A DNA stretch of 32,771 bases from Bacteroidota bacterium (GTDB lineage: Bacteria > Bacteroidota > Bacteroidia > UKL13-3). Below are positions 5,648 to 32,771 of the stretch, one piece after another. The stretch is taken from positions 1 to 32,771 of the forward strand of contig CANKGI010000005.1 in NCBI GenBank assembly GCA_947481365.1, written 5' to 3'. Position 1 is the stretch's first letter; every line of letters starts with the position of its first letter. Position numbers and translations under genes: made by a program. The notes below the pieces were generated by a model. The model had not been told where the DNA came from and did not search any database. It was given only the letters and a program-made list of their open reading frames with translations.

Positions 5648-5993
5648 CTTTTAATTCGGCTTTGAGCTTTTGCGTTAAACTATTTACAACGAGTTCGTAT
5701 GAGTGGTCAACGAGTTTCAAAATCTCTTTATCATTTAAATCGAGATGATAAGTTATGGTGTTCCAGTGTTGTTTATTCATATGATACCCTGGCTTCACAG
5801 CTTCATACTCGGCACGAAGTTCAATAGCTTTTTCTGGGTCGCATTTTAAATTGCAGTTATCGGGTTCCGAAAATGAAGTGAGCGCAAACATCTTTCCCAT
5901 TACTTTAAATACAAGCGTATCTTCACCAAACGGAAATGTTTCTTCCACACCATTTTTTCTCAAACAATATTCTCTGATAATTTCAATATTCAT
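5637..5993 (-). CDS. MmcQ/YjbR family protein
   Basis: 118 aa; EYCLRKNGVEETFPFGEDTLVFKVMGKMFALTS...NLKCDPEKAIELR...VKPGYHMNKQHWNTI is the MmcQ/YjbR (DUF419) signature. Start overlaps the flippase stop. Confidence 0.92.
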   Translation of the reverse strand: MNIEIIREYCLRKNGVEETFPFGEDTLVFKVMGKMFALTSFSEPDNCNLKCDPEKAIELRAEYEAVKPGYHMNKQHWNTITYHLDLNDKEILKLVDHSYELVVNSLTQKLKAELKAME

Positions 5994-7155
5994 TTTTCAT
6001 CGATTGATAAAAATCCACATAAAACCAAATCAGCATTCCGATTTGCGAGAGTGCCATAGAACAAAGTGCCCCTTCGATACCAAAAGGTTTAATGAGTAAA
6101 AAACTAGCTATTGCATTGATAACAATTCCTGAAGAATTTATCAGTATCACTTTTGTGATTTTATTCTCGCCAAAAAAATAAAATGCCACCGGAGTGTACC
6201 AAAATACAGGCATGATACAAACAAAACTGATGAAATAAACTGTTATCGAAAAATCGATATGATAGAAATATTTGATAACCGCAAACTCCAATAAAATGAC
6301 CGACAAAGAAATCAATATTCCTATTTGGTAAAATTGCTTGATGAAGTTTTTTAAACCGTCTTTACTAATTCTGAAAACATTTTTTGCATATGGATAAATA
6401 ATAAACGAAGCCGCTGAAGCGCCCATCAAAATAAGACTTGTTACGATTCCGTATTTAGCCAGTTCTATTTTATCCAACAATAAATTTACAGCCATAGCAT
6501 CGGTTTTTGTTTGTACAACTCCGGTAAAACCAAGCAACATAAAACCCATCGAACTTTTAATCATATTGATTGAAAAACCCCTTGCAAAAAATTTCCTGTA
6601 AAAAAAGGATGAGATCATTGTTCTTAAAAAATAACCGAGAGTTATCAGAAATAAAATGTCTTCAAAAATCAAATCCTTATTAAAAATGCAAATCATTACA
6701 CTTGAAGTAAGAACAGCCAACTCTGAAATCATTAATGGTATAAATTTCTTTTCGAATGAGGCTATTGATTCAAACGATTGCTGAATATGTCTCAGAAAAA
6801 TCCAAATGATAAGATACATGACTCCTTGCAAGTGAATAAACAACAACACAAAAAGTAAAGCAGGAATGACCAACAAAACCGAACGAGTGTTAAACGATTC
6901 GCTCCAAATATTTTTTAATTGCGATGGTGATTTACTAAACTCTCGTAGTAAAAATTCTTTATTACCCCAAATGGTAAATGTTGTAACTACATAATAAATA
7001 ATTTGAAGTTCAACGATATTACCCCACCATGCTGTTTGATAAAAACGGATGATCAGAAATGAATTCAGAATGTTGGATAATCCGGGAAGAGAAAGAAAAA
7101 CTGCGTTTCCTAAAACTGGTTTGATACGATTAAAAAGTTTTTCTCCTAGAAACAA
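5983..7155 (-). CDS. Polysaccharide-flippase-like (Wzx/MATE-type) membrane protein
   Basis: 390 aa with about 10-12 hydrophobic segments; flippase-like pattern (LLGFTGVVQTKTDAMAVNLLLDKIELAKYGIVTSLI). Confidence 0.7.
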   Translation of the reverse strand: MFLGEKLFNRIKPVLGNAVFLSLPGLSNILNSFLIIRFYQTAWWGNIVELQIIYYVVTTFTIWGNKEFLLREFSKSPSQLKNIWSESFNTRSVLLVIPALLFVLLFIHLQGVMYLIIWIFLRHIQQSFESIASFEKKFIPLMISELAVLTSSVMICIFNKDLIFEDILFLITLGYFLRTMISSFFYRKFFARGFSINMIKSSMGFMLLGFTGVVQTKTDAMAVNLLLDKIELAKYGIVTSLILMGASAASFIIYPYAKNVFRISKDGLKNFIKQFYQIGILISLSVILLEFAVIKYFYHIDFSITVYFISFVCIMPVFWYTPVAFYFFGENKITKVILINSSGIVINAIASFLLIKPFGIEGALCSMALSQIGMLIWFYVDFYQSMKNEY

Positions 7156-13321: not shown

Positions 13322-13981
13322 CTAACCCATTTGAACATATTTGAGAAATTCTTCTCTAGTCTTTTGATCGATAAATTTTCCTGAATACTCACTGGTTACA
13401 GTTTTACTGGTAATATCTTGTATACCTCGTGAGGCCACACATAAATGATCTGCCTCTATCAATACGGCAACATCATCTGTTTTCAAAACTTCTTTTAATT
13501 CATTGGCAATTTGTACCGTCATTCTCTCTTGAACCTGTGGACGTGCAGCATAATACCTAACAATCCTGTTTAGTTTTGACAAGCCTACAACTTTTCCGTT
13601 GGATATATAAGCCAAATGGGCTCTACCGATAATAGGAACAAAGTGATGCTCGCAATTACTAAAAAATGAAATGTTCTTTTCGACAAGCATTTGCTTGTAC
13701 TGGTATTTGTTTTCGAACAATTTTGCTTTGGGTTTATTCAACGGATTTAATCCTCGAAAAATCTCTTTAACATACATTTTGGCAACACGATGAGGTGTGC
13801 CTTTCAAACTATCATCACTTAAATCCAAACCAAGGATGAGCATTATTTCTTTGAAATGCTTTTCTATAAGTTCTATTTTAATTTCATCGTCTATATCAAA
13901 AGCATCAGCTCTTAATGGGCTTTCAATATTGCCTGTAAAACCGTGATCATCGATCTCTATTATTTCCTTATTTTCCTTCAT
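13322..13981 (-). CDS. folE: GTP cyclohydrolase I
   Basis: GTPHRVAKMYVKEIF, FFSNCEHHFVPIIGRAHLAYI, GLSKLNRIV, RPQVQERMTVQIA and EADHLCVASRG motifs. Start likely ATG at 13981 (MKENKEII); the track ORF starts at 14008. Confidence 0.96.
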   Translation of the reverse strand: MKENKEIIEIDDHGFTGNIESPLRADAFDIDDEIKIELIEKHFKEIMLILGLDLSDDSLKGTPHRVAKMYVKEIFRGLNPLNKPKAKLFENKYQYKQMLVEKNISFFSNCEHHFVPIIGRAHLAYISNGKVVGLSKLNRIVRYYAARPQVQERMTVQIANELKEVLKTDDVAVLIEADHLCVASRGIQDITSKTVTSEYSGKFIDQKTREEFLKYVQMG

Positions 13982-14378
13982 ATTCAGCAAAATTTCTTTC
14001 TGTTTCATAAAGTTTAACTTTAAGTTTAAATGCTTTATCTATTTTGTTATTTATTATTTTCCAAACTACCACCGCCATATTTTCAACTGTTGGATTCAGA
14101 TTTAAAAATTCAATACAATCCATATTCAGATTTTTATGATCAAATCGTTCAACAATTTCACATTCAATCATCTCTTTAAGGATTTTTGTATCTATTACAA
14201 ATCCTGTCTCAGGATCTATTTTACCAGTTATAGTTACAATTAACGTGTAATTATGCCCATGGTAATTTTTGTTATTGCACAAACCAAAAACCTGCTTATT
14301 TTTTTCTTCACTCCAACTTGCAACGTGCAGCCGGTGAGCCGAATTAAACTGACATTTTCTTGAAATTGATACTTCCAT
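13968..14378 (-). CDS. 6-pyruvoyltetrahydropterin synthase / 6-carboxytetrahydropterin synthase (QueD/PTPS) family
   Basis: FNSAHRLH, CNNKNYHGHNY, GFVIDTKILKEMI, FDHKNLNMD, PTVENMAVVVW and YETERNFAEY motifs. TACCTTTG box upstream. Confidence 0.92.
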   Translation of the reverse strand: MEVSISRKCQFNSAHRLHVASWSEEKNKQVFGLCNNKNYHGHNYTLIVTITGKIDPETGFVIDTKILKEMIECEIVERFDHKNLNMDCIEFLNLNPTVENMAVVVWKIINNKIDKAFKLKVKLYETERNFAEYEGK

Positions 14379-14643
14379 TTTAATTTAACAAAGGTATTAG
14401 CATTATAATAAAATACTTACTAATAATGCTTCTGTTGTAAATCACAAACACGTCTTCTTGTAAAAAGTTTTGGCCAAACATTTTGGATTCAACCTCGATT
14501 TCAATAAAAGACATTAAATATTTGATAACAATTTGGCGAAATGAACACAATATAATCAATTGATTTAATGTATCTTAAACAAATATTGACTGCTAAATTC
14601 ATGAATAATAAAAAAACACTTGCTATTCTAATTTAGAAAGGTT

Positions 14644-14651
14644 TAAATTTG
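14644..14651 (+). promoter_or_regulatory. Bacteroidota-type -7 promoter box (TAAATTTG) for the sigma-factor gene
   Basis: TAAATTTG matches TAnnTTTG, with a TTG at 14620-14622, 21 nt upstream. Confidence 0.55.
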
Positions 14652-14680
14652 TTTAACTTTTTAACATATAAGATAAACAA

Positions 14681-15211
14681 ATGACCGCAATTGAATTTAA
14701 AAACAAAGTACATAAAGAAAGTCGTTCGCTAAAAAGCTATGCGTATCAACTTACCAGAAACACTGAAGATTCAAACGATTTGGTACAAGATACGATGCTA
14801 AAAGCATTTACATATCAAGATAAATTTACTGAAGGCACAAATTTGAAGGGATGGTTGTATACCATTATGAAAAATACATTCATCAACAACTACCGGAGAA
14901 TGGTGAAGCGTAACACTTTTATCGACCAAACAGACAACGACTATTATTTAGACAGTTCGAGCTTGTCGGTAAAAAACGATGGCGAAATTCGATTTATGAT
15001 GAAGGATATTGAAAATGCTATAGATTCACTTCCTATAAGCTTGAAAAAACCATTTACCATGAACTTTAAAGGATTTAAATACCATGAAATTTCTGAAATA
15101 TTACACATACCTATTGGAACTGTAAAAACTAGAATTTTTGTAGCCCGCAGACATTTACGCGAACAATTAAGCGGATACGGCAAACATTATGGTTTGGAAA
15201 ACGTAGCCTAA
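14681..15211 (+). CDS. RNA polymerase sigma factor, sigma-70 family (ECF-like)
   Basis: Region 2 (AYQLTRNTEDSNDLVQDTMLKAFTYQDKFTEGTNLKGWLYTIMKNTFINNYRR) and region 4 (LPISLKKPFTMNFKGFKYHEISEILHIPIGTVKTRIFVARRHLREQL). Confidence 0.95.
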   Translation: MTAIEFKNKVHKESRSLKSYAYQLTRNTEDSNDLVQDTMLKAFTYQDKFTEGTNLKGWLYTIMKNTFINNYRRMVKRNTFIDQTDNDYYLDSSSLSVKNDGEIRFMMKDIENAIDSLPISLKKPFTMNFKGFKYHEISEILHIPIGTVKTRIFVARRHLREQLSGYGKHYGLENVA

Positions 15212-15237
15212 AATATTTTCCATTTTATCTAAAAAAG

Positions 15238-15261
15238 AGCGTCAGAAATGATGCTTTTTTT
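15238..15261 (+). terminator. Intrinsic terminator after sigma-factor gene
   Basis: agcgtca-gaaa-tgatgct (one G-U pair) followed by T7. Confidence 0.75.
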
Positions 15262-15326
15262 GTTTTAAATATTTTACGTTTTCATCTAAAAAAATTTGTT
15301 TCTTTGAATAAGAAAATATTTCTCAA

Positions 15327-16154
15327 ATGAAAAAAATAGTTGTAGTTATCCTAACAGTATTCATTAGTCAATTTTGTCGTGCACAATTTGGGTATTTAAA
15401 AAAAGCTGATCTGGAAAAATTTAAAGACACCCGAACAGTAGTTGTTCTTTTTAACGACAGTTCATATAATGCTTCAATAAAATCAGCAGTCGAAAAATAT
15501 TGGAATTTTACCGGAACTATTTTCGCTTACGATACTGGCTTGAAACAATACAACAAACCTGAATTTTCATTTTTGGTGTTCAGTAAAGGAAAAGGCTCAA
15601 AAATAAAAGCCAAAGTGTGTTCAAGTGAACAAGATTTTAACGGCTTGCAGGTTCTGAAAAAATTTAAAAGGCGTGCAACAAAAGATGAATTGGTTGCTCG
15701 CGCTTTTTGTAGCAATAAAATTGATACTGATAATTGGGCAGCCGAAACTATTAGAGGCGTTCAGATGCTTACAAATTATTTTAACTATGCTGTTGAAGCG
15801 AAAGGCGAACTTACTCCATCAAATTATCCATCAGATAAAAGCCAGATGCTAAACAAAAAATTACTTGTTCCCGAAAAAGTATTACTCATGAAAGGGAAAG
15901 AGGATGCTGCTGCAATATTAGACGGTGAAGTTGAAGAGGTTCCTCGCGAGGATATTGAGAAAAATATTGTTAATCAGGATCAATCGTCAATGTATTATTT
16001 CTATTCGTTTGATGAAAAAGATTGCAACAAACTTGTGCTTACATCCGAAAAAAGTGAGTTAATGTATTTCACTACCGACTCACCTGAAAATTGTTCGTGT
16101 GTAGCTAAAGATTTGAAAGCAATGAAGTCGGCAAAAGTGAAAGCAAACAAATAA
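15327..16154 (+). CDS. Hypothetical secreted protein (275 aa)
   Basis: Signal peptide MKKIVVVILTVFISQFCRAQ; no known domain recognised; full-length clean ORF. Confidence 0.75.
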   Translation: MKKIVVVILTVFISQFCRAQFGYLKKADLEKFKDTRTVVVLFNDSSYNASIKSAVEKYWNFTGTIFAYDTGLKQYNKPEFSFLVFSKGKGSKIKAKVCSSEQDFNGLQVLKKFKRRATKDELVARAFCSNKIDTDNWAAETIRGVQMLTNYFNYAVEAKGELTPSNYPSDKSQMLNKKLLVPEKVLLMKGKEDAAAILDGEVEEVPREDIEKNIVNQDQSSMYYFYSFDEKDCNKLVLTSEKSELMYFTTDSPENCSCVAKDLKAMKSAKVKANK

Positions 16155-16157
16155 TTT

Positions 16158-18557
16158 CTATTTAGAAATCATAAAACGTTTTGCAACAGAGAAACCCGAT
16201 TCGCCTTTAAATACAATAAAATAAAAACCAATTTGGTAGTCCGAAATATCAATCGCTTTATCTGAGTGATATTTAGTTATTTCCCCTTTGTCGGTTAGTT
16301 TTCCTATTTCATCGTACACTTCATAACGAATATTTTCATTCATATTTTCAGTAGCAATATGAATGGTTTCGTTTGCAGGATTCGGATATAAAACAATATT
16401 TGGATTTACTTTTTGCAACGAAGGACCAACAGAAATATAAGATTTCTTATTACTGCCAAAATAATTTAAACCTCCACGAATATTTCCCATGATAATATCT
16501 GGTTTCGAATCGCCATCCAAATCACCAACAAATGGTGATGTTCGTCCACCAAAATTTAATTTATACGTATTTAACGAACTATTATCCGACACAAAAGTAT
16601 AACCATCGTTTATATACAATAAAGTTGATCGAGAAAATACAGTTCCCGGTGTTGTATTTACACCTGTGTATAAATATAAATAACCAGCTTGACATCCAAC
16701 CAACATTTCATAATTCCCATCATTATCCAAATCGCAAACAATTGGTGTGGCATAGGCAGTTTGTCCTGTATCACTATATCCTTGCGCCATCAATGTTACT
16801 TTATTTACTTTTACTTTTCCTAATGTATCGATGGTTGGAACATTGCTAAACTGAGGCACTGCTGTTGTTCCTGTGTTCTGAAAATATTGTATAAACCCTA
16901 GTCGGTTTCCGATAACCAAATCCAATTTACCGTCTTTATTTAAATCAACTAATTGTGGTGCTGCATATCCCTTTACTTGTATGTTTGAGAATGTTGACGA
17001 TTGCAATAGAAATGAATAATTTGTACCCGATGTTTGGTTGGTGTAATACCTTAAATTTCCTGAGGCATCACCTATTATTAAATCTTCTTTTCCGTCACCA
17101 TTTAAATCGCCAAATGTTGGATGCAAATTAATAATTGGTGTAGGTGTACTTAACATTAAAAAATTGGTGTCTGATAAAGTAAAAACTGGCTTCAAAGGAT
17201 CTGCACTAATATTTTTATACAATACCAATCTATCATTGTTGTTTTGAGTTTGGGCATAATCTCCGTTGGTAGCAACAATTAAATCTTTGTCGCCATCATT
17301 ATCAATGTCTATTAATACAGGAGTGGTTCGTGCTCCCAAATCAATCGATTCATTATTGATCATTAAATTATTTCCCTGATAATTAAATATTGGATGTGCT
17401 GTGGTACCCGAATTAGTATATACCCAAACGTTATTCGCATTTTTTACTCCGGTAGGATTATTTGTTGATACGAGTAAATCTTTTTTGTTATCGTTATTGA
17501 TATCGGCATAATAAACTGCCGGTTGCATGATAAAATTAAAAGGAACTGTGTTTGAAGGGAACAATGTATCCTGCGAAACTATTGAATCAACATAAACCTT
17601 TGAATTCTTTTTTCGACTGTTGGTTAACGATACCAAATTCGTGAAACCAATATCGCCATAAATTAAATCTTTTACACCATCACCATTTAAATCAATCATG
17701 GTCATGGTTGTTCCTGCATGTTTTTGTTGTTTGTTATATAATGTAAAACAACCTGCATTTTTAGGTTGGTGAAGTTTAAATCTATTCGTTCCAGCAAACA
17801 CATCAAATGAAACAAACCCCCAACAATCATCACGATAAACAAAAACCACACTATCGTGACCATAATGAATACCTTGATCATTCTTAGTGAAATTCTCATA
17901 ATAAAATGGTGTTATGCTTAATGCACTACTTTGAAAACCGATGATGTCGTTGTCACCATCTCCATCAATATCTTCAATAGCTGTCATGTCGTTGGCTGTA
18001 ATACCAACTTGTGCAGGAGGATATGAACCACCGGGGCCTGCCCAAAAATATCTACCGGTATCATAAACCTGATCATAAATCAATTTAAATTTTACGCCAA
18101 GCGAGTCGGATAAATTTTTAAAAATACGCAAACCATTAACTTGTGGAATGTAACTTGTATCAACCAACTGGTATTGCTCGCGACATATATTTGTGAATAT
18201 TTCTTCTTTACCATCACTATTCTCATCAAGCATTTTCACCCAATCGGTCATTTCCGGGAAACGACTTTCATATTGTGGGTCGTAATAAAATGCATTGTCC
18301 TTCCAAACAAATGTCAACAACTTATGTCCTACCGAATACATCGAACGATCAAAGACAACAAGGTCTTTTATGCCATCGTTGTTTAAATCCACATTCGAAA
18401 ATTGTGGCATATTCATTCCTCCAACAAATGGATATTGCATTGTGTCGTTATTGCTTTTTAAAAATTTTGGGGTATTTGAGTAATAAAACTTAAACGTTTG
18501 TGAAAACGATAATTGTGATACCAATAGAAATAACAAAATGTATATAACTCGTTTCAT
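16158..18557 (-). CDS. FG-GAP/VCBS-repeat secreted protein with T9SS type A sorting domain
   Basis: Signal peptide; about ten DxNxDGxxDL motifs (e.g. DLNNDGIKDLVVFD, DIDGDGDNDIIGF, DLNGDGKEDLIIGD); C-terminal VLYPNPANETIHI...GFYFIVFKG.SGFSVAKRFMISK. Confidence 0.93.
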   Translation of the reverse strand: MKRVIYILLFLLVSQLSFSQTFKFYYSNTPKFLKSNNDTMQYPFVGGMNMPQFSNVDLNNDGIKDLVVFDRSMYSVGHKLLTFVWKDNAFYYDPQYESRFPEMTDWVKMLDENSDGKEEIFTNICREQYQLVDTSYIPQVNGLRIFKNLSDSLGVKFKLIYDQVYDTGRYFWAGPGGSYPPAQVGITANDMTAIEDIDGDGDNDIIGFQSSALSITPFYYENFTKNDQGIHYGHDSVVFVYRDDCWGFVSFDVFAGTNRFKLHQPKNAGCFTLYNKQQKHAGTTMTMIDLNGDGVKDLIYGDIGFTNLVSLTNSRKKNSKVYVDSIVSQDTLFPSNTVPFNFIMQPAVYYADINNDNKKDLLVSTNNPTGVKNANNVWVYTNSGTTAHPIFNYQGNNLMINNESIDLGARTTPVLIDIDNDGDKDLIVATNGDYAQTQNNNDRLVLYKNISADPLKPVFTLSDTNFLMLSTPTPIINLHPTFGDLNGDGKEDLIIGDASGNLRYYTNQTSGTNYSFLLQSSTFSNIQVKGYAAPQLVDLNKDGKLDLVIGNRLGFIQYFQNTGTTAVPQFSNVPTIDTLGKVKVNKVTLMAQGYSDTGQTAYATPIVCDLDNDGNYEMLVGCQAGYLYLYTGVNTTPGTVFSRSTLLYINDGYTFVSDNSSLNTYKLNFGGRTSPFVGDLDGDSKPDIIMGNIRGGLNYFGSNKKSYISVGPSLQKVNPNIVLYPNPANETIHIATENMNENIRYEVYDEIGKLTDKGEITKYHSDKAIDISDYQIGFYFIVFKGESGFSVAKRFMISK

Positions 18558-23465: not shown

Positions 23466-26400
23466 TTATTCTTTTACAATTTTCTGAACAGTTTCTGTTC
23501 CGTTCACATTGATCTTAATAAAATAAACTCCGGTATGTAAATCATTCATGTTGTCAAACACAAAATTATTTTCACCTTTTGATACTTTTACTTCTTTGGT
23601 ATCAATCATTTTTCCAACAATGTTAAACACGCTAATATTTGCTGTTCCTGCATTCTCGGTAGTTAATGCAATATTGATGTTTGAATTAAATGGATTGGGA
23701 TAAACACTAACTGCATTCGAATTCTCATCATCAAATCTTACCATTCTCACTTGCGAGTATTCAAACTTTCCGTCTTTGTCAACCATTTTCAAACGATAGA
23801 AAACTACTTTTGATGAACTGGAAACAACAGGTTTATAATCGGTGTAAAAATATTGCTTCAAGCTGTTGCTATTTCCTGCTGCCTGAAGTTTGTTTATGGC
23901 TTCATATGATTTTCCGTTAAACGATCTTTCAACTACAAAATAATCACTGTTCATTTCTGATGCAGTTTTCCAATCGAGCAACGCATCTTTACCAATTCGT
24001 TTTGCATTAAATGCATTCAACTGAATTGGCAATGGATTCATCATATCTGTTCCTGTATAATCTGCAGTTGCCGATAAAAATGTTGTACCTATACTTCTTG
24101 CCACTGTATCAAGTGTATATGTCGAACTGTAGAAAGCTGTCCATGGCGAACCTACACCTGGTCGTGATGTAAGTGCAAGATTTGTTTCGCTCGGAACAGT
24201 TCCTAACATGGTTGGTTTGTAATTTAAGTTTAGGTTGTAATAATAACTTAAACCAGTACCGCTCTGTACAAAACTCCAATAACAATTTGTTACATTATAT
24301 CCAGTTGATGAAGGAGGATTTGTTCCTGAATAATATCTAACATTAAATGTATTTGGTAAAACACCAAATGCAATCCAATTTACATTTGCAATAGTATCAC
24401 CAAAAGATGTATAATATTGTGTTGCACTATACGCAGGTGAAGTACTAGCTACAGCAAATGGTGGTGGTACACTTGGAGTAAACTCGAATGCACCAATATC
24501 AGGAGCTCCGGTTATTACATCGTTACTTCTGAAATTTCCATTATAATCTGATGTCATTTGGAATACCTGTAAACCTCTTCCATTAAGTGCCCACGAATTA
24601 CTATCGGATAAACTTGGTAATAAATTAGTAGCCGATGTAAATACGATTGGAGCGGTTAACGAATGATTATCACATCCATAAAATAATTTATTTTTCATTG
24701 AAGCAAAATTGGCTGGGCTGTAAGGTGAGCCACTCATTGTACTTAATGCAGATATGTATGTACCAGCAGAATAATACAAATTATAATCCATCACATTCAA
24801 TGCAGCGTTTGCGTAAATGTCATTGGTATAAAATGCATAACCTGATTGAACTTTCACAAGATTATTCACAAATTGAATATTGTTTGATGCCGGATACAAA
24901 GTTGCTCCCGAAGTAAAACTTGCATTTCCTACAATATAAACTCCATATGAACTTGCAGATGTTGAACTGTTGTTGATGGTATTATTAAACATATAAATCT
25001 GCGAAGAATTATTGATAGAGATACCATACGAACTTGCAGCTGTTGATAGAAGATTGATCGTATTATTTGCAATCGTTAAATTTCCTGGTATTGCATAATA
25101 TGCTTCCATATTGATGTATATACCATATGTACCTGCAGGATTTTGAATATTGTTCCCGCTAATTTCACTTTGCTGTCCAACACCAGAAAGATATAATCCG
25201 TATGAAGCGGTATAAGCTGATGACAAATTAATCTGGTTCTTTCTGATGAAATTAGAAAACCTGTTTGTTAAATAAAATGCTGCATAATATTGATTCGTGA
25301 ATGTGTTCGAATCAGCTACTAAGCCAATTGTATTTTGATTAACAACATTCGGACCGCTAACTGTAATTGCTATTGAGCCATTATTAAACGCATTACTTAC
25401 AAACCTTAAATTAGCTGGTGACTCATTTGTTGGTGCATAAATAATAGCATACTGATCGGCTGTACTAGCTACAGTTGAACCATTGAAAACACAATTCCTG
25501 AATTCAATATCCGAACAATTGATATTGCTTAATGTATTTTTATTTAAAGCAATAATTCTCGAATAAGTTGCATTTGCATTTTGGAATGTGATATACCTGA
25601 ATGTTGTATATTTTAATCCAACAGGATTGATTGTGTAATTGGTAATTGATGTAGAAGTTGAAGACGTAATGGTAACACTTGCAGGATTATTTGTTGCCGA
25701 TTTAAACAGAATGGTGTTTGTGGCACTTGTTCCTACAATTGCTGGTATTAGAAGCTGTCCTGTGTATGTTCCAGCGGCAATATTAAATGTAACCGGACCA
25801 TAAACTCCACCGCAAGTTAACTTATCAATTGCCGATTGTATAGTTGTAAAATTAGTTGAACCCGAACCTGCTGGATCAATGGTATAATTTCCAGAAAGAC
25901 CTCCACAAATACTTAATTGTGTGCTGTCATTTATATTCATAGAATCGACAACAAAGTTTGGATTAGAAGTCCATGCAGTAATATTTACTAAACCTCCGGT
26001 AAAGTTATATTGTTGACTTGATGAACTTGGTCCGCTGGTTGAATTAAATGTAACGGTATCATAATTTCCGGCAGCTATGGTGTTATAAAATGTTTGCGTA
26101 TTTATTGTTGCACCTATTTTATAAGAAACATCAACTGATGTTAATGGCATTGTTCCATAATTTCTGATTAGCACTCTTACATCACTCAATCCTGGAACTA
26201 ATGGTTGTGTTGGAACTAATATAGAAACAGCACCTGCATCATTTGCCGGTTTCGAAAATTCGTAAACACCGATATCAGGATTTGTTACACTTCTAATATT
26301 TCCATCTATATCATCAATAACAGTTGAAATAACAGCTGCTGCTCCATCAAGTTGAGGGGAGATTGACCTTAAATTTGTTGATGAGAAAAATGTTGGCAAC

Positions 26401-29400
26401 ATATACAAACTAGCAACATTGTTACCCGGTAATACGGTGCCTAACATATTTGCTCCAGTTGCAAAACTTACAAGATTTGTTGTAACAAAACCACCGGCCC
26501 TAAACGGATAGGTTCCTGTAGAATAGTAAACATTATTATCTATTGTGTATAATGCTGTACCAACGTTAGCCGGAGTAATAACATAAATTGATTGTTCGCC
26601 TTGTGGTGAAACAAAAATATTATTCATAATTTTCACATTGGTATATGTAGCAGGAACAGTGTTGTTTGTTACCATTGCTCCACCTGCATTACTTGCATCG
26701 GCAGTATTTAATTTTACTGTATTATATACCACATCGAGGTATGCATTATTTACTTCATAAATACCATAAGTTACATATGATGCAGCTCCAATCTGAATCA
26801 TATTGTTTGCAATCGTTTGTCTGAAAGATGCATTTCCTAAACCTGTTGAAGCATATATTCCATAACCACCAAGCGTGTTCGAAATACTATTTTTGGTGAT
26901 TGTGTTTCCGTTTTCAGAAGATGAAAGATATATACCATATGGGGAAGTATATCCTGCATTTATACCAATCGAATTAATGTTATTTTTTGTAACAGTTATT
27001 CCATTTTGATAATACAAATACATGCCACTTAAATATGCATTACTCATTGTTGAATTTCTGAAAATATTACCTGTTCCTTTTGGTGAAACAGAATTTCCAT
27101 AAACCACAACTCCGTAATAACCTCCAACAGAAGTACAACTATCAAATAAAATATAATTGGCATTGTTTCCTGCAGTTGTAGGGCTAGTTAATGACCCTGA
27201 TACAACAAATGGATTTACCAATGATGTTGTACCAATTGGAACACGGAAAGTACATTTTACAAATGTATTACTGTCGGCAGCATTTGTAAGTTCGGCAGCA
27301 AATGCATTCGATGTACTCAACCCGTCAAAAGTGAAATTTCTAAAAACTAAATTTCTAACACCACTTAGTAAAAGTGTTGCAGGTTGTGCTGCATTTCCGC
27401 TATAAGCAATTTTACAAAGAGATGAATCTCCACCATCAAAAATCAGTTTATTTGATCCTGATAAACCTGGTATAGCTGATGTAATTGCCAATTGCTGATT
27501 ATAAACTCCGGAAGCTACGTTTACTGTTACCGGACCACTAATACCACAAGTTTGTAACACCTGAATGAGTGAAGCAAAAGATGTGTAATTTGTAGTTGAA
27601 GCCGCTGAACTTGGATTTATAGTAAGTGTTCCTGTTAAAGGTGTACATACTGTATAGTTGATTGTATCATTTAATGGAAAACTATCATTAAGTGTATTTG
27701 GCAAACTCGACCAAACTTTTAAATTATAAATACCATTGGTTGCAAAATTATATGAACCAATCATGCTTGAAGAAGTATCGCCTGGATTGGCTGAGCCATA
27801 CCAATAATATGTTGGTTGACCAACAGTGTTTACGGTCCAATCAATGTTTGCACTATATAAAATTGACGTTCCATAATTTTTCAATGTTGCTGTTACATTT
27901 TGGTATCCTACACTTATTGGATTCAACGGACCCGTTATTCTAGAGATACCTGCATCATTTCCGGGAACCGAAAATTCATATGCACCGAAATCGGGTGTTG
28001 ATGTTCTACCTATTCCTAAAATATCTGTTGGAACTAAAGTTAAAATATTGGCACCTTTATTATTCAACGTATCATTTGATGGCTGATAAAAATCGGGTGC
28101 GATGTATAATCTAAAGTTAGGATTTGCAAAATAACTTGCCTGATCATACAAACCAGCATTTGCAGTTTTCCAATTTGCTAGTGTTTGGAAGTTTGCAGCA
28201 TAATATCCAACATATCCTGTTGATGAATTATTCACCATGTAATAACCATTGTTATTGATAACAAAAGTTCCTGAAGGTGTAAATGCTGATGGAATGTAAA
28301 TACAATATTTGCTACCTGTTCCTCCTCTATTTACATAAACCAAATTATTTCTGAAAGCAAAATTGTTGGTTGTTGCTGTACCTGTAAAATATAAACCATA
28401 CGTTGCACTTGCAGTGGTTGCAGTTGGATCATCTAACACAATTGTATTGTGGTAAAAATTCAGGTAATAAGATGATGAACCATAGAATCCATATTGAACT
28501 CCCTGCCCTTTAATATTGTAAATAACATTATTCCTTACAACTTCAGGAGCGGTTGTACTTCCATATGCAGCCGAAGAGAAATACATTCCATACATGGTGT
28601 TTGTGTTGGTAGGAGTTGCTTTATAAATATCATAAATCTGATTTTTTTCAATAGTATCACCATAATAAATTGATGAATTATAAAAACCATAAAATGTAGT
28701 AGTAGTAGTTCTAGTAGGCATACTAATTCTGTTACCAGAATATAAATTTTTGTAACCATATTGAAGATAGTACGAATACACATATGGATCTCTCATATCA
28801 TTTCCTACAAACTGATTGTACTGAACAACCGAAGTGTATTCACTACTTCCTCCCATATTGGTAATTCCATAATATGGGCCACCTGCGGCATTACCTTTTA
28901 ATATATTATTACGTATAATATTTCTAATTCCATTGTGAGTAGTACCACTTGTTGTAACGGAATTCGTTGAGCCTGAAAATGCAATAAACGCATTGGTTGA
29001 ACTTGTTCCAAGATTGGTAAAATCAATTGTATTATTCTCAATAACATTTGAATCGGCATGATTCGATAATAAAATTCCTATGCCATAAGTTACATTAAGT
29101 GTTTTAATAGTAAGTCCATTGATATTCATGTTATCAGTACCATTCAACATTAATATAAAGCAATTGCTAGCATCCGGATTTGCTTGCAGTATATTTCCAT
29201 TTCCATTTATTGTTATTTTATTTGTAGCGGATGCACCATTGATCACATTGAACATAATTTGTTCAGTATATGGTCCACTTCCGGGCACAACATTCACAGT
29301 TATCGGACCTGAAATTCCTCCTCTGTTGCAAGCATCTTTCAATACAGTAAACGATTGAAAGTTTGAAGAACTGGCAGCTGCACCTGCATTTAATGTATAA

Positions 29401-32111
29401 GTTCCTGCACTTACTGCACAAAATGAATTAATTAAATATGCGGTATCATTTGAATTATTAGGATCGGTTGTCGTATTAGGATTAGTCGTCCATGCTGTGA
29501 TATTAACAGGAACACCTGTTGTATAATTTACCGTTCCCAATAAAATGTTTGAAGAAACTCCTGCTGCACTAAGTGAGCCAATCCAAGAGAATGGTGTTTG
29601 AGGAACTCCATTAAAAGTCCAGTTAACAGTTGCAGATGTTATTGTTGTTAATCCCGAATTTCTGATTGTAACATTAATTGGAATTACACCTGCTGCAAAT
29701 GGTGCAACTGGAATTACAACTGAGTTAACTCCTGCATCCACACTAATAGTTGGAGTAAATTCGTATGCTCCCGGATCAGGTGTTGTTGTTCTTGTAGCAC
29801 CAATAAAATCAATTCCAACTATTGATGATAAGTTTGCTCCTTTATTATTGATAAATCCTTCTTGTGGTGTAAGGTCACCTGTAGAAGGACTCAAGAAATT
29901 TGGAAAAATATTTATCGATGCTGCATCAAATATTCCGCTATTTGCAGATCTCCAATCTAAAAATGTTTGATAATTACTTAAGTAATATCCAACGTATGAA
30001 TTTGCACCAGAAACATTGTAAACGTTATTATTAAAATTGTACAAGGTTCCTGCTACTGATAAATTTACAGCATATTTAAAACTCGTACCACTTCTTGTAA
30101 TATTAAAGATATTGTTTCGCACATCTAAACCATTTCCGCTTATCAAACCATTATGAAATAATGCTACTGTTTGATATGCATTTGTAACAGCTGATGCTGC
30201 ATGATCAAAGCAAAACGAATTATGATAAATTTTAAAATTAGTTGAAGAACTAATATAAAAACCATAAACACTGCCACTGGATTGAATGTTGTAAAACTTA
30301 TTATTGGCCATTACAAAATCACTACCAACAGGTGTATTCGTTGATGCAGCATATACACCATAATAAGTATTGGTTGTAGTTGTTACACCACCATAAGGGT
30401 TTGTAAAAGTGTTTCCCCATAATGTATCTTTCTGACTTCCATTCACAGCATATATATTATATACAGTAGTAACAGAAGTTCGAGTTGGATTTCTGAAAAT
30501 ATTATTTTTTAAGAGCGTTCCGTTTGTGTAGTACATATACAATCCGTACACGTAAACATTCTCGATTATATTATTGATTAATTTATTGTTTGAAACAGTA
30601 GCTGCACTTGCTTGCGGACACAAAGTAATACCATAATAAGGGCCACCAGTTGTTGGATGTCCTTTTACATAACAATTGATAATGGTATCATATTTACCAT
30701 TAGCACCTGTTGTTGTTGCAGATGATAGAGAGTTACTAAAGACAATTCCTGCTGTGGATGTTGCAGTTCCCGTAACAAGTGCAAAATCAATTGTACATCC
30801 GTTAAATGTATTGTAATCGGCATTGGTATAAAAATGAATTCCCCAAGCATAAGTTGCATTTAATGGCTTAATGGTTAAATTATTAAATTTATAATAAGTA
30901 CCTGCTTGTAATCTAATAACCGAATAGTTTGCTGCATCGCAATTATATTGTATGGTACTTCCATTACCATTAAAAGTAATTGTATTGGTAGCTGAAGCCC
31001 CTGTAATTGCAGGAAAAATTAAACGCTCTGTGTAAGTTGAGTTTGTAACGTTAAACACAACTGGACCGGAAATTCCACAAGACATCATTGCTGAATCGGC
31101 AGCACCAAATGTTAAAAAATTAGTTGTTCCCGAACCTGCTGGATTGATTGTATACGTTCCACTTAAAGGTCCAGAACAATACACCTGAAAACTTCTACAT
31201 GTTGTATCATTTGAAGGAGAAACTGAACCAAATCCATTTGGATTTGTTGACCAAGCCCTCATACTATAAGCACCAGTTGCAGGAATAGCTAATAAAGTAG
31301 TAAATGTTGCATTGTATGTTGCACCAGGTGCAACTGATAATCCGGTTAAAGATTGATAAACCGGTGTATTGGATCCTAGCTGGTATCCAATATCTATTGA
31401 TGTTAATGTTACTGAAGAAAAATTCTTAATTGCAATGCCGATAGTGTTATTTCCAGAAATAAAACTTGCCGGAGATGAAAATCCGGTACTCATGGTTTCG
31501 ATAGTTGGAGAAGGCACCAATAAAGTGTAATCTTCGAACTCCGCAGAATACACGGTTGGACCACATGGTGTTGGAATGTTTGTTAATCCATCACTTGCAA
31601 TTCTAATTCTGTATATTCCTGCAGCTTGACCAACTGGTATTGTAAAAGTTCCTGTAACAATTGTATTTACAGCCAATCCTGTTGTTGAAGTATAAACCAA
31701 TTCTGGAGCAGTGGTTGCAAATGTTCCATCATTATTGTAGTCTATATAAATCCTAAAAGTAGTTGAGTTTCCTGCACCTACTTTTATCGAATAATTTACT
31801 ACAACACCAGCACCTGCTGTTAACACCTGACTAGTATAATCAAAATAAATTGGTGAACCCGTTCCACTCCCTGTTGTATTATTAATTTGCGTAGGTGCAG
31901 CAACTGTATTTAAGGTAACATTTTGAATACCCATACTATAACTACCAATGCTTGTTGCAGTGGGCAAACAGTATGTAGGTGCCGAATAGCACTGAGCATT
32001 ACTCACGTTAACGTGTATAAAAAGTAATAGGAATGAAAAAATAAAAATTGAGAAATTGCTGGTTGTGGTAGAAAAAGAACCACCAGTTAGAGTATCATTT
32101 TGCCTTTCCAT
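23466..32111 (-). CDS. Giant (2881 aa) secreted modular protein: GEVED-like domain, four tandem CARDB-like/parallel beta-helix modules, T9SS type A sorting domain
   Basis: Single uninterrupted ORF. Signal-peptide-like N-terminus ending SNAQ; IYIDYNNDGTFA...YRIRIASDG (GEVED-like); repeated ...TSxxVxW/Y... NITAWTxNPN ... GISGPVxxNV ... YGIYxS..N.I..N.I ... PDxGAYEF modules; C-terminal VSVYPNPFNSNINIAL...GVYFIKINVNGTETVQKIVKE. Confidence 0.93.
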   Translation of the reverse strand: MERQNDTLTGGSFSTTTSNFSIFIFSFLLLFIHVNVSNAQCYSAPTYCLPTATSIGSYSMGIQNVTLNTVAAPTQINNTTGSGTGSPIYFDYTSQVLTAGAGVVVNYSIKVGAGNSTTFRIYIDYNNDGTFATTAPELVYTSTTGLAVNTIVTGTFTIPVGQAAGIYRIRIASDGLTNIPTPCGPTVYSAEFEDYTLLVPSPTIETMSTGFSSPASFISGNNTIGIAIKNFSSVTLTSIDIGYQLGSNTPVYQSLTGLSVAPGATYNATFTTLLAIPATGAYSMRAWSTNPNGFGSVSPSNDTTCRSFQVYCSGPLSGTYTINPAGSGTTNFLTFGAADSAMMSCGISGPVVFNVTNSTYTERLIFPAITGASATNTITFNGNGSTIQYNCDAANYSVIRLQAGTYYKFNNLTIKPLNATYAWGIHFYTNADYNTFNGCTIDFALVTGTATSTAGIVFSNSLSSATTTGANGKYDTIINCYVKGHPTTGGPYYGITLCPQASAATVSNNKLINNIIENVYVYGLYMYYTNGTLLKNNIFRNPTRTSVTTVYNIYAVNGSQKDTLWGNTFTNPYGGVTTTTNTYYGVYAASTNTPVGSDFVMANNKFYNIQSSGSVYGFYISSSTNFKIYHNSFCFDHAASAVTNAYQTVALFHNGLISGNGLDVRNNIFNITRSGTSFKYAVNLSVAGTLYNFNNNVYNVSGANSYVGYYLSNYQTFLDWRSANSGIFDAASINIFPNFLSPSTGDLTPQEGFINNKGANLSSIVGIDFIGATRTTTPDPGAYEFTPTISVDAGVNSVVIPVAPFAAGVIPINVTIRNSGLTTITSATVNWTFNGVPQTPFSWIGSLSAAGVSSNILLGTVNYTTGVPVNITAWTTNPNTTTDPNNSNDTAYLINSFCAVSAGTYTLNAGAAASSSNFQSFTVLKDACNRGGISGPITVNVVPGSGPYTEQIMFNVINGASATNKITINGNGNILQANPDASNCFILMLNGTDNMNINGLTIKTLNVTYGIGILLSNHADSNVIENNTIDFTNLGTSSTNAFIAFSGSTNSVTTSGTTHNGIRNIIRNNILKGNAAGGPYYGITNMGGSSEYTSVVQYNQFVGNDMRDPYVYSYYLQYGYKNLYSGNRISMPTRTTTTTFYGFYNSSIYYGDTIEKNQIYDIYKATPTNTNTMYGMYFSSAAYGSTTAPEVVRNNVIYNIKGQGVQYGFYGSSSYYLNFYHNTIVLDDPTATTASATYGLYFTGTATTNNFAFRNNLVYVNRGGTGSKYCIYIPSAFTPSGTFVINNNGYYMVNNSSTGYVGYYAANFQTLANWKTANAGLYDQASYFANPNFRLYIAPDFYQPSNDTLNNKGANILTLVPTDILGIGRTSTPDFGAYEFSVPGNDAGISRITGPLNPISVGYQNVTATLKNYGTSILYSANIDWTVNTVGQPTYYWYGSANPGDTSSSMIGSYNFATNGIYNLKVWSSLPNTLNDSFPLNDTINYTVCTPLTGTLTINPSSAASTTNYTSFASLIQVLQTCGISGPVTVNVASGVYNQQLAITSAIPGLSGSNKLIFDGGDSSLCKIAYSGNAAQPATLLLSGVRNLVFRNFTFDGLSTSNAFAAELTNAADSNTFVKCTFRVPIGTTSLVNPFVVSGSLTSPTTAGNNANYILFDSCTSVGGYYGVVVYGNSVSPKGTGNIFRNSTMSNAYLSGMYLYYQNGITVTKNNINSIGINAGYTSPYGIYLSSSENGNTITKNSISNTLGGYGIYASTGLGNASFRQTIANNMIQIGAASYVTYGIYEVNNAYLDVVYNTVKLNTADASNAGGAMVTNNTVPATYTNVKIMNNIFVSPQGEQSIYVITPANVGTALYTIDNNVYYSTGTYPFRAGGFVTTNLVSFATGANMLGTVLPGNNVASLYMLPTFFSSTNLRSISPQLDGAAAVISTVIDDIDGNIRSVTNPDIGVYEFSKPANDAGAVSILVPTQPLVPGLSDVRVLIRNYGTMPLTSVDVSYKIGATINTQTFYNTIAAGNYDTVTFNSTSGPSSSSQQYNFTGGLVNITAWTSNPNFVVDSMNINDSTQLSICGGLSGNYTIDPAGSGSTNFTTIQSAIDKLTCGGVYGPVTFNIAAGTYTGQLLIPAIVGTSATNTILFKSATNNPASVTITSSTSTSITNYTINPVGLKYTTFRYITFQNANATYSRIIALNKNTLSNINCSDIEFRNCVFNGSTVASTADQYAIIYAPTNESPANLRFVSNAFNNGSIAITVSGPNVVNQNTIGLVADSNTFTNQYYAAFYLTNRFSNFIRKNQINLSSAYTASYGLYLSGVGQQSEISGNNIQNPAGTYGIYINMEAYYAIPGNLTIANNTINLLSTAASSYGISINNSSQIYMFNNTINNSSTSASSYGVYIVGNASFTSGATLYPASNNIQFVNNLVKVQSGYAFYTNDIYANAALNVMDYNLYYSAGTYISALSTMSGSPYSPANFASMKNKLFYGCDNHSLTAPIVFTSATNLLPSLSDSNSWALNGRGLQVFQMTSDYNGNFRSNDVITGAPDIGAFEFTPSVPPPFAVASTSPAYSATQYYTSFGDTIANVNWIAFGVLPNTFNVRYYSGTNPPSSTGYNVTNCYWSFVQSGTGLSYYYNLNLNYKPTMLGTVPSETNLALTSRPGVGSPWTAFYSSTYTLDTVARSIGTTFLSATADYTGTDMMNPLPIQLNAFNAKRIGKDALLDWKTASEMNSDYFVVERSFNGKSYEAINKLQAAGNSNSLKQYFYTDYKPVVSSSSKVVFYRLKMVDKDGKFEYSQVRMVRFDDENSNAVSVYPNPFNSNINIALTTENAGTANISVFNIVGKMIDTKEVKVSKGENNFVFDNMNDLHTGVYFIKINVNGTETVQKIVKE

Positions 32112-32204: not shown

Positions 32205-32771
32205 TTAATAAGCGTCAAGCCATTTTTTAAATTCAGATGAGCGTTCTCTGCTCACAACTATTTCATCATCAATATTTGGAAGCAAAATTACCTTCAGTTT
32301 ACCATTGAAAGATTGATGTACCGACTGTATTGATTTTATGGATGAGATGTATTGACGATTTAATTGAAAAAAATCAATAGGGTCGAGCATCTTTATTAAT
32401 TTATCAATTGAAAAATCTGTAATGTATTTACGCTCATCATGTGTTACCAAGTAGACTGCCTTTTCTTGTGCAAAGAAATAAGCAATATCACTAGTTAAAA
32501 CCGTCAATAATTTGGTTCCTGATTTAATCAAAAACCTTTTTTTATATTTAGCTTCTGTTTGATTAACCGCATTTAAAAAATCATCAATTTTAGCTGCATA
32601 ATTTATGCTTGTTGTAGTAATTGATTTTAATTTATGAAATGCATTTTTGAGTTCATCTTTATCAATAGGTTTTAGCAAATAATCAATACTATTTACTTTA
32701 AAAGCTTTCAAAGCAAATTCATCGTATGCTGTTGTAAAAATTATTGGGCAATTAATTTTTACATGATTAAA
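32205..32771 (-). CDS. LytTR-family two-component response regulator, 5' part outside window
   Basis: The reading frame is open to the window edge (NHVKINCPIIFTTAYDEFALKAFKVNSIDYLLKPIDKDEL: end of the receiver domain), followed by a LytTR DNA-binding domain (FLIKSGTKLLTVLTSDIAYFFAQEKAVYLVT...FFQLNRQYISSIKSIQ). The track's start at 32711 is an artefact of the edge. Confidence 0.93.
   Translation of the reverse strand, partial: FNHVKINCPIIFTTAYDEFALKAFKVNSIDYLLKPIDKDELKNAFHKLKSITTTSINYAAKIDDFLNAVNQTEAKYKKRFLIKSGTKLLTVLTSDIAYFFAQEKAVYLVTHDERKYITDFSIDKLIKMLDPIDFFQLNRQYISSIKSIQSVHQSFNGKLKVILLPNIDDEIVVSRERSSEFKKWLDAY

Follow-up and report, generated by a model that had tools for sequence, protein, structure and literature searches.

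Giant surface proteins exported by the type IX secretion system (T9SS) include the SprB-type gliding adhesins of Flavobacterium. Cargo proteins of Prevotella intermedia carry a T9SS signal together with one to three pectin-lyase-fold domains, forming tandem beta-helices whose function is mostly unknown (PMC11969387). The adhesin-like proteins of methanogens combine repeated right-handed beta-helices with an Ig-like stalk on a surface protein for which binding has been inferred; they are archaeal and membrane anchored, and their helices are typically N terminal and followed by a run of Ig-like domains (PMC11532034). CshA-type fibrillar adhesins have a GEVED domain near the N-terminal tip, a stalk of CshA repeats, a C-terminal LPXTG anchor, and a history of domain shuffling, and stalk-protein tips are the main location of GEVED domains (PMC10952558). 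GEVED by itself is no adhesin marker, since it is also present in a secreted M4 protease (PMC10178186). PfbA of Streptococcus pneumoniae, a beta-helix surface protein with one helix, a sortase anchor, and known protein ligands, provides a precedent for an adhesin that is lyase-like but for which no lyase activity was seen (PMC3718772).

Here we describe a giant gene on a 32,771-nucleotide stretch of DNA from a Bacteroidota bacterium, referred to below as the window. Like the P. intermedia cargo, its product has a T9SS signal and tandem beta-helices, but there are four helices (up to 10 in relatives), which alternate strictly with CARDB-like Ig domains, and a GEVED tip is added. The methanogen proteins share the repeated helices and Ig-like domains but not the alternation, and neither T9SS nor a GEVED tip is described for them. 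Compared to CshA-type adhesins, which likewise have a GEVED domain near the tip, the stalk is made of beta-helices rather than CshA repeats, and the tail is that of a T9SS protein rather than LPXTG. The repeated stalk domains expected of a fibrillar adhesin are present as four tiled modules. In known fibrillar adhesins, GEVED is partnered by the NR2 adhesive domain. Neither NR2 nor any further N-terminal domain was recovered by Pfam or NCBIfam in the approximately 80 residues before GEVED, and membership in the CshA/NR2 adhesins was rejected on this ground. PfbA is a structural neighbor of the C-terminal model in Foldseek, with no sequence match found to the giant protein. Compared to the SprB type, the giant protein has a type A tail, from which attachment to the surface by PorU is predicted. 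T9SS cargo and methanogen proteins already exemplify this kind of protein; the alternating CARDB/helix array with a cassette-like tip was not found in the open-licence literature searched. The original prediction had named this protein the best candidate in the window for undescribed function, which stands insofar as the search yielded no full-length homologue of described function but does not extend to the protein class.

Gene and domain architecture

The gene is a single unbroken ORF on the minus strand (23466-32111) that starts with ATG and encodes 2,881 aa, and the plus strand across this interval contains stops throughout. The coordinates agree exactly with those predicted originally, to which the strand is now added. 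The G+C content of the gene, 34.4%, is close to the 33.8% of the window, so it is compositionally no stranger there. The window is the entire contig C5 of a 2.67-Mb assembly in 245 contigs that is approximately 90% complete. Full-length or near-full-length single matches (40 to 46% identity, E=0) were found in eight of 34 other same-family genomes, and the match was present in pieces in two (G015 and G033). Judged by the full-length relatives in these eight genomes, the ORF cannot be a product of chance. The giant gene is also carried by contigs L035, L036, L037, and L040, all from metagenome-assembled genomes.

The domain architecture given in Table 1 is near certain. Pfam identified GEVED (PF20009) at aa 119-197 (E 3e-14), Beta_helix (E 6e-8), and Por_Secre_tail (PF18962) at aa 2803-2879 (E 6e-13), and NCBIfam identified the T9SS type A sorting domain (TIGR04183, E 4e-12) and a choice-of-anchor Q domain; the sorting domain also gave a profile match to the solved C-terminal domains (CTDs) 8glk and 8glj. 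The GEVED-like and sorting domains proposed from the initial reading were thus both recovered, the latter as type A, and the Asn/Thr/Tyr/Ser-rich composition noted then was borne out (T 11.8, N 11.4, S 10.4, and Y 6.9%). Orthologs have a common start ending in AQCY, and the combination of C2 and CTD is seen again in many T9SS proteins encoded by this genome.

Table 1. Features of the giant protein and their positions in the window
Feature	Residues (aa)	Position	Strand	Basis
Putative signal peptide	1-39	31995..32111	(-)	Long n-region, hydrophobic core, probable cleavage between SNA and QC; read by eye from translation
Tip: N-terminal beta domain + GEVED domain (AEFEDY motif)	40-117 + 118-200	31512..31994	(-)	Pfam PF20009
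Putative tip cassette: GEVED + Ig1 + beta-helix 1 N-terminal cap	40-380	30972..31994	(-)	Sliding identity, conflicting trees, AU tests
Module 1: Ig1 + beta-helix 1	201-317 + 318-785	29757..31511	(-)	Self-comparison, profile tiling, AlphaFold
Module 2: Ig2 + beta-helix 2	786-902 + 903-1380	27972..29756	(-)	Self-comparison, profile tiling
Module 3: Ig3 + beta-helix 3	1381-1493 + 1494-1952	26256..27971	(-)	Self-comparison, profile tiling
Module 4: Ig4 + beta-helix 4	1953-2070 + 2071-2544	24480..26255	(-)	Self-comparison, profile tiling, AlphaFold
Beta domains C1 + FN3-like pre-CTD C2	2545-2700 + 2701-2802	23706..24479	(-)	C2+CTD recurrence; model strands
T9SS type A C-terminal sorting domain	2803-2881	23469..23705	(-)	PF18962, TIGR04183

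Four copies of an Ig/beta-helix module

Residues 200 to 2544 consist of four seamless copies, each of approximately 580 aa, of one module made of a CARDB-like Ig domain (113 to 118 aa) and a right-handed beta-helix (459 to 478 aa). The repeats were detected by cutting the protein at PDxGAxEF motifs and comparing the pieces; a self-BLAST of the uncut protein listed no match other than that of the whole protein to itself. The four helices are mutually 25 to 40% identical (BLAST E 4e-12 to 1e-81), the Ig domains also match one another, and a profile of the four units tiled without gaps over residues 200-785, 786-1380, 1381-1952, and 1953-2544, each copy covering nearly all 579 positions. No DNA-level tandem repeats were found within the gene, because the modules are too diverged. 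By sequence, the Ig part weakly matched PDB entries 2kl6 and 3idu (E approximately 1e-3); by fold, Foldseek matched it to the CARDB domain 3idu (TM 0.67 of target).

AlphaFold models were obtained for aa 40-902 (mean pLDDT 83.9, pTM 0.68) and aa 1945-2881 (mean pLDDT 80.3, pTM 0.69), the respective inputs being 29 and 27 sequences from the window and its relatives. Both models contain the short regular strands typical of a parallel helix and support the predicted beta-helix fold, so that the original prediction withstood its own structural check; the several long beta-helix segments first proposed are correct yet understated, being four copies of one module. Among the PDB neighbors of the aa 1945-2881 model in Foldseek were GH28, GH87, tailspikes, and AlgE4, as well as the adhesin PfbA, and alginate lyase was also among the neighbors of the fold; global TM-scores are low due to the many-domain query, and these matches identify the fold and not the function. 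The top matches of the N-terminal model (transglutaminase, protein 4.2, and RbmA) reflect an Ig-sandwich likeness at TM 0.1 to 0.3 and are functionally uninformative, and viral fold matches were equally weak.

Relatives and history of the array

A tree of 86 modules grouped those of 12 four-module proteins by position: for each of modules 1, 2, 3, and 4 there were 2 label changes, compared to about 11.4 when labels were shuffled, and none of 500 shuffles gave so low a value. The rows departing from strict grouping by position are members of this protein family that are incomplete or split. Since module 1 groups with module 1, module 2 with module 2, and so on, the four-module order is, by the evidence of this tree, ancestral, with an array that predates the genus splits and has been inherited in order. 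The number of modules in relatives ranges from 2 to 10, and other family members (L057 to L064) have 9 to 10 tiled modules in frames of approximately 6,000 to 7,000 aa. Three of these (L058, L059, and L064) begin directly with a helix, like the tipless four-module proteins described below. Of 297 Bacteroidota genomes, 60 contained a match to the module profile at E <= 1e-20, in many cases to the helix part only. Three paralogues in the same genome, L010, L011, and L012 (on contigs C29, C53, and C2; 2,334, 1,702, and 1,980 aa), have 2 to 3 module copies and T9SS tails but no GEVED tip. The four-copy module, its ancestral order, the 9- to 10-module relatives, and the exchangeable tip considered below were all missed by the original prediction.

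Export and neighboring genes

The genome encodes SprA (SprA_N), and two PorU-like Peptidase_C25 proteins and has 116 Por_Secre_tail matches that pass the cut-off, which together with the type A CTD agree with the export through T9SS that had been predicted for this protein. In the T9SS model, PorU cleaves the CTD and attaches the new C-terminus to surface polysaccharide (PMC11969387). By analogy with this established biology, the CTD of the giant protein would be cleaved and the protein anchored at the surface, an anchor predicted from the type A tail. With PorU anchoring the C-terminus, the N-terminal tip would be outermost.

Among the 20 neighbor proteins scanned, the majority were housekeeping proteins and none was a polysaccharide-degradation enzyme, and the reading of the region as a polysaccharide utilisation locus was rejected. 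A LytTR response regulator gene (32205-32771, minus strand) lies directly upstream of the giant gene and is cut by the contig end; it was set aside as a partner, as no homologue occurred in the relatives' flanks examined. FolE, a PTPS/QueD-like protein, an ECF sigma factor, and a 275-aa protein form one block (13322-16154) located 7 to 10 kb from the giant gene. L037 and L040 have the same block near their orthologs of the giant gene, which fits vertical descent of this gene. The ECF sigma factor in this block is 78% identical and the 275-aa protein, which has no Pfam match and may be a sigma-factor partner, 53% identical. The window also encodes a second T9SS protein of 799 aa with FG-GAP repeats and a Por_Secre_tail (16158-18557, minus strand) and a 390-aa ORF (5983-7155, minus strand), without a Pfam match at E 0.001, that adjoins an outer membrane beta-barrel protein.

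Conflicting phylogenies of tip and stalk

GEVED is the most conserved part of the protein in orthologs (65 to 72% identity, compared to 34 to 53% for the helices and 24 to 38% for the CTD). Five four-module orthologs (L019 to L023) lack GEVED and Ig1, and in these helix 1 comes first; two of them, L019 and L020, are 32 to 40% identical to the window protein at residues 331-380 and 18 to 60% identical afterwards. Compared to the giant protein of a genus-mate genome (G001), identity was 52 to 74% over aa 31-380 and 12 to 43% beyond, with sliding identity falling from approximately 63% to approximately 26% near aa 380. By these sequence comparisons the same tip is found on non-orthologous stalks; most of the tips in the long giants were missed by phmmer and found by blastp. 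The tip (aa ~40-380) behaves as a cassette that appears to have been lost in some orthologs and is present on other stalks.

The tip tree placed the giants L063 and L038 with the four-module tips (support 100/99), while in the helix 1 tree (from aa 381) all giants formed one group (support 100/100). We tentatively propose a two-part recombining adhesin system, in which stalks of 2 to 10 modules would keep their order over long periods while a tip of approximately 340 aa is swapped by recombination within the conserved first-helix cap, with a junction near aa 380. For the cassette part of this proposal, a slowly evolving tip, a fast first helix, and simple tip loss could together produce the same discordance. 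Loss by itself would explain the tipless orthologs, and L038 has a long branch in the stalk tree. Rate differences alone, however, yield no conflicting clades, and each data set rejected the groups of the other: the AU test on the stalk data rejected the tip group (p 0.00075, or 0.041 without the long-branched L038), and that on the tip data rejected three stalk groups (p 8.7e-6, 4.5e-9, and 4e-134), all of these p-values being somewhat optimistic because the groups were picked after the trees were seen. The four-module tips as one group did survive the test on the tip data (p 0.088), as unequal rates would allow, so the cassette may have moved in either direction in the window's own lineage. 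We consider the unequal-rates explanation unlikely.

Probable function

The giant protein is probably a T9SS-anchored modular stalk adhesin with its tip outermost, a reading that the tiled modules, their ancestral order, the fold models, the T9SS genes, the conserved yet exchanged tip, the variable module number, and the lack of an enzyme family match make likely. Adhesion, the tip as the binder, and a glycan ligand are inferred from the architecture, with the GEVED tip as the candidate ligand-binding domain. The same fold is used by enzymes, and at least one beta-helix module could be a lyase or hydrolase of an unlisted family, with the other modules and the tip holding the substrate. GH28, GH87, alginate lyase, and AlgE4 among the fold neighbors are consistent with this, as are some charged residues conserved at single module positions in BH2 to BH4. 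In contrast, searches of Pfam and NCBIfam to a cut-off of E 0.1 gave no CAZyme-type or catalytic family, in line with the absence of an obvious catalytic domain noted originally, and the columns that do not vary among 19 modules consist of Asn, Gly, Tyr, and Ser plus an end cap, D..R..E. From the alignment these columns are structural, and there is no catalytic set common to the modules. Considered together with the lack of polysaccharide-degradation enzymes among the scanned neighbors, an enzymatic role is improbable. A slightly better, though still small, chance is given to self-association, in which the helices would bind the same protein on adjacent cells in an Ag43-type handshake or form a surface coat or the matrix of a biofilm, without involving a foreign ligand. 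The helices are long and almost uncharged (K+R+D+E, 7 to 9% of each), several paralogues in the genome carry the same modules, and the persistence of tipless orthologs implies that the stalk alone must be useful. Against this, it is the tip and not the helices that is most conserved, and tip exchange suggests selection on what the tip meets.

Under the favored adhesin reading, the protein would be exported through Sec and T9SS, lose its C-terminal sorting domain by cleavage, and be joined to the cell surface by PorU. The four CARDB-Ig/beta-helix modules would form an extended stalk that presents the GEVED tip outward for specific contact with a surface such as a glycan, particle, alga, or other cell, and the faces of the beta-helices may add multivalent glycan contacts. 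Lineages would lose the tip cassette or exchange it between stalks, so specificity and stalk length could evolve separately. If the two-part system is correct, specificity would change without a change of stalk, much as in phage fibre-tip swapping. The clean repeat unit, conserved order, and exchangeable tip resolve an opaque giant ORF into parts suited to separate expression and testing. With 116 tails in a 2.67-Mb assembly, this Bacteroidota group invests heavily in T9SS surface proteins, whose large architectures are barely described, and an exchangeable tip would offer a testable rule for how such bacteria alter what they adhere to.
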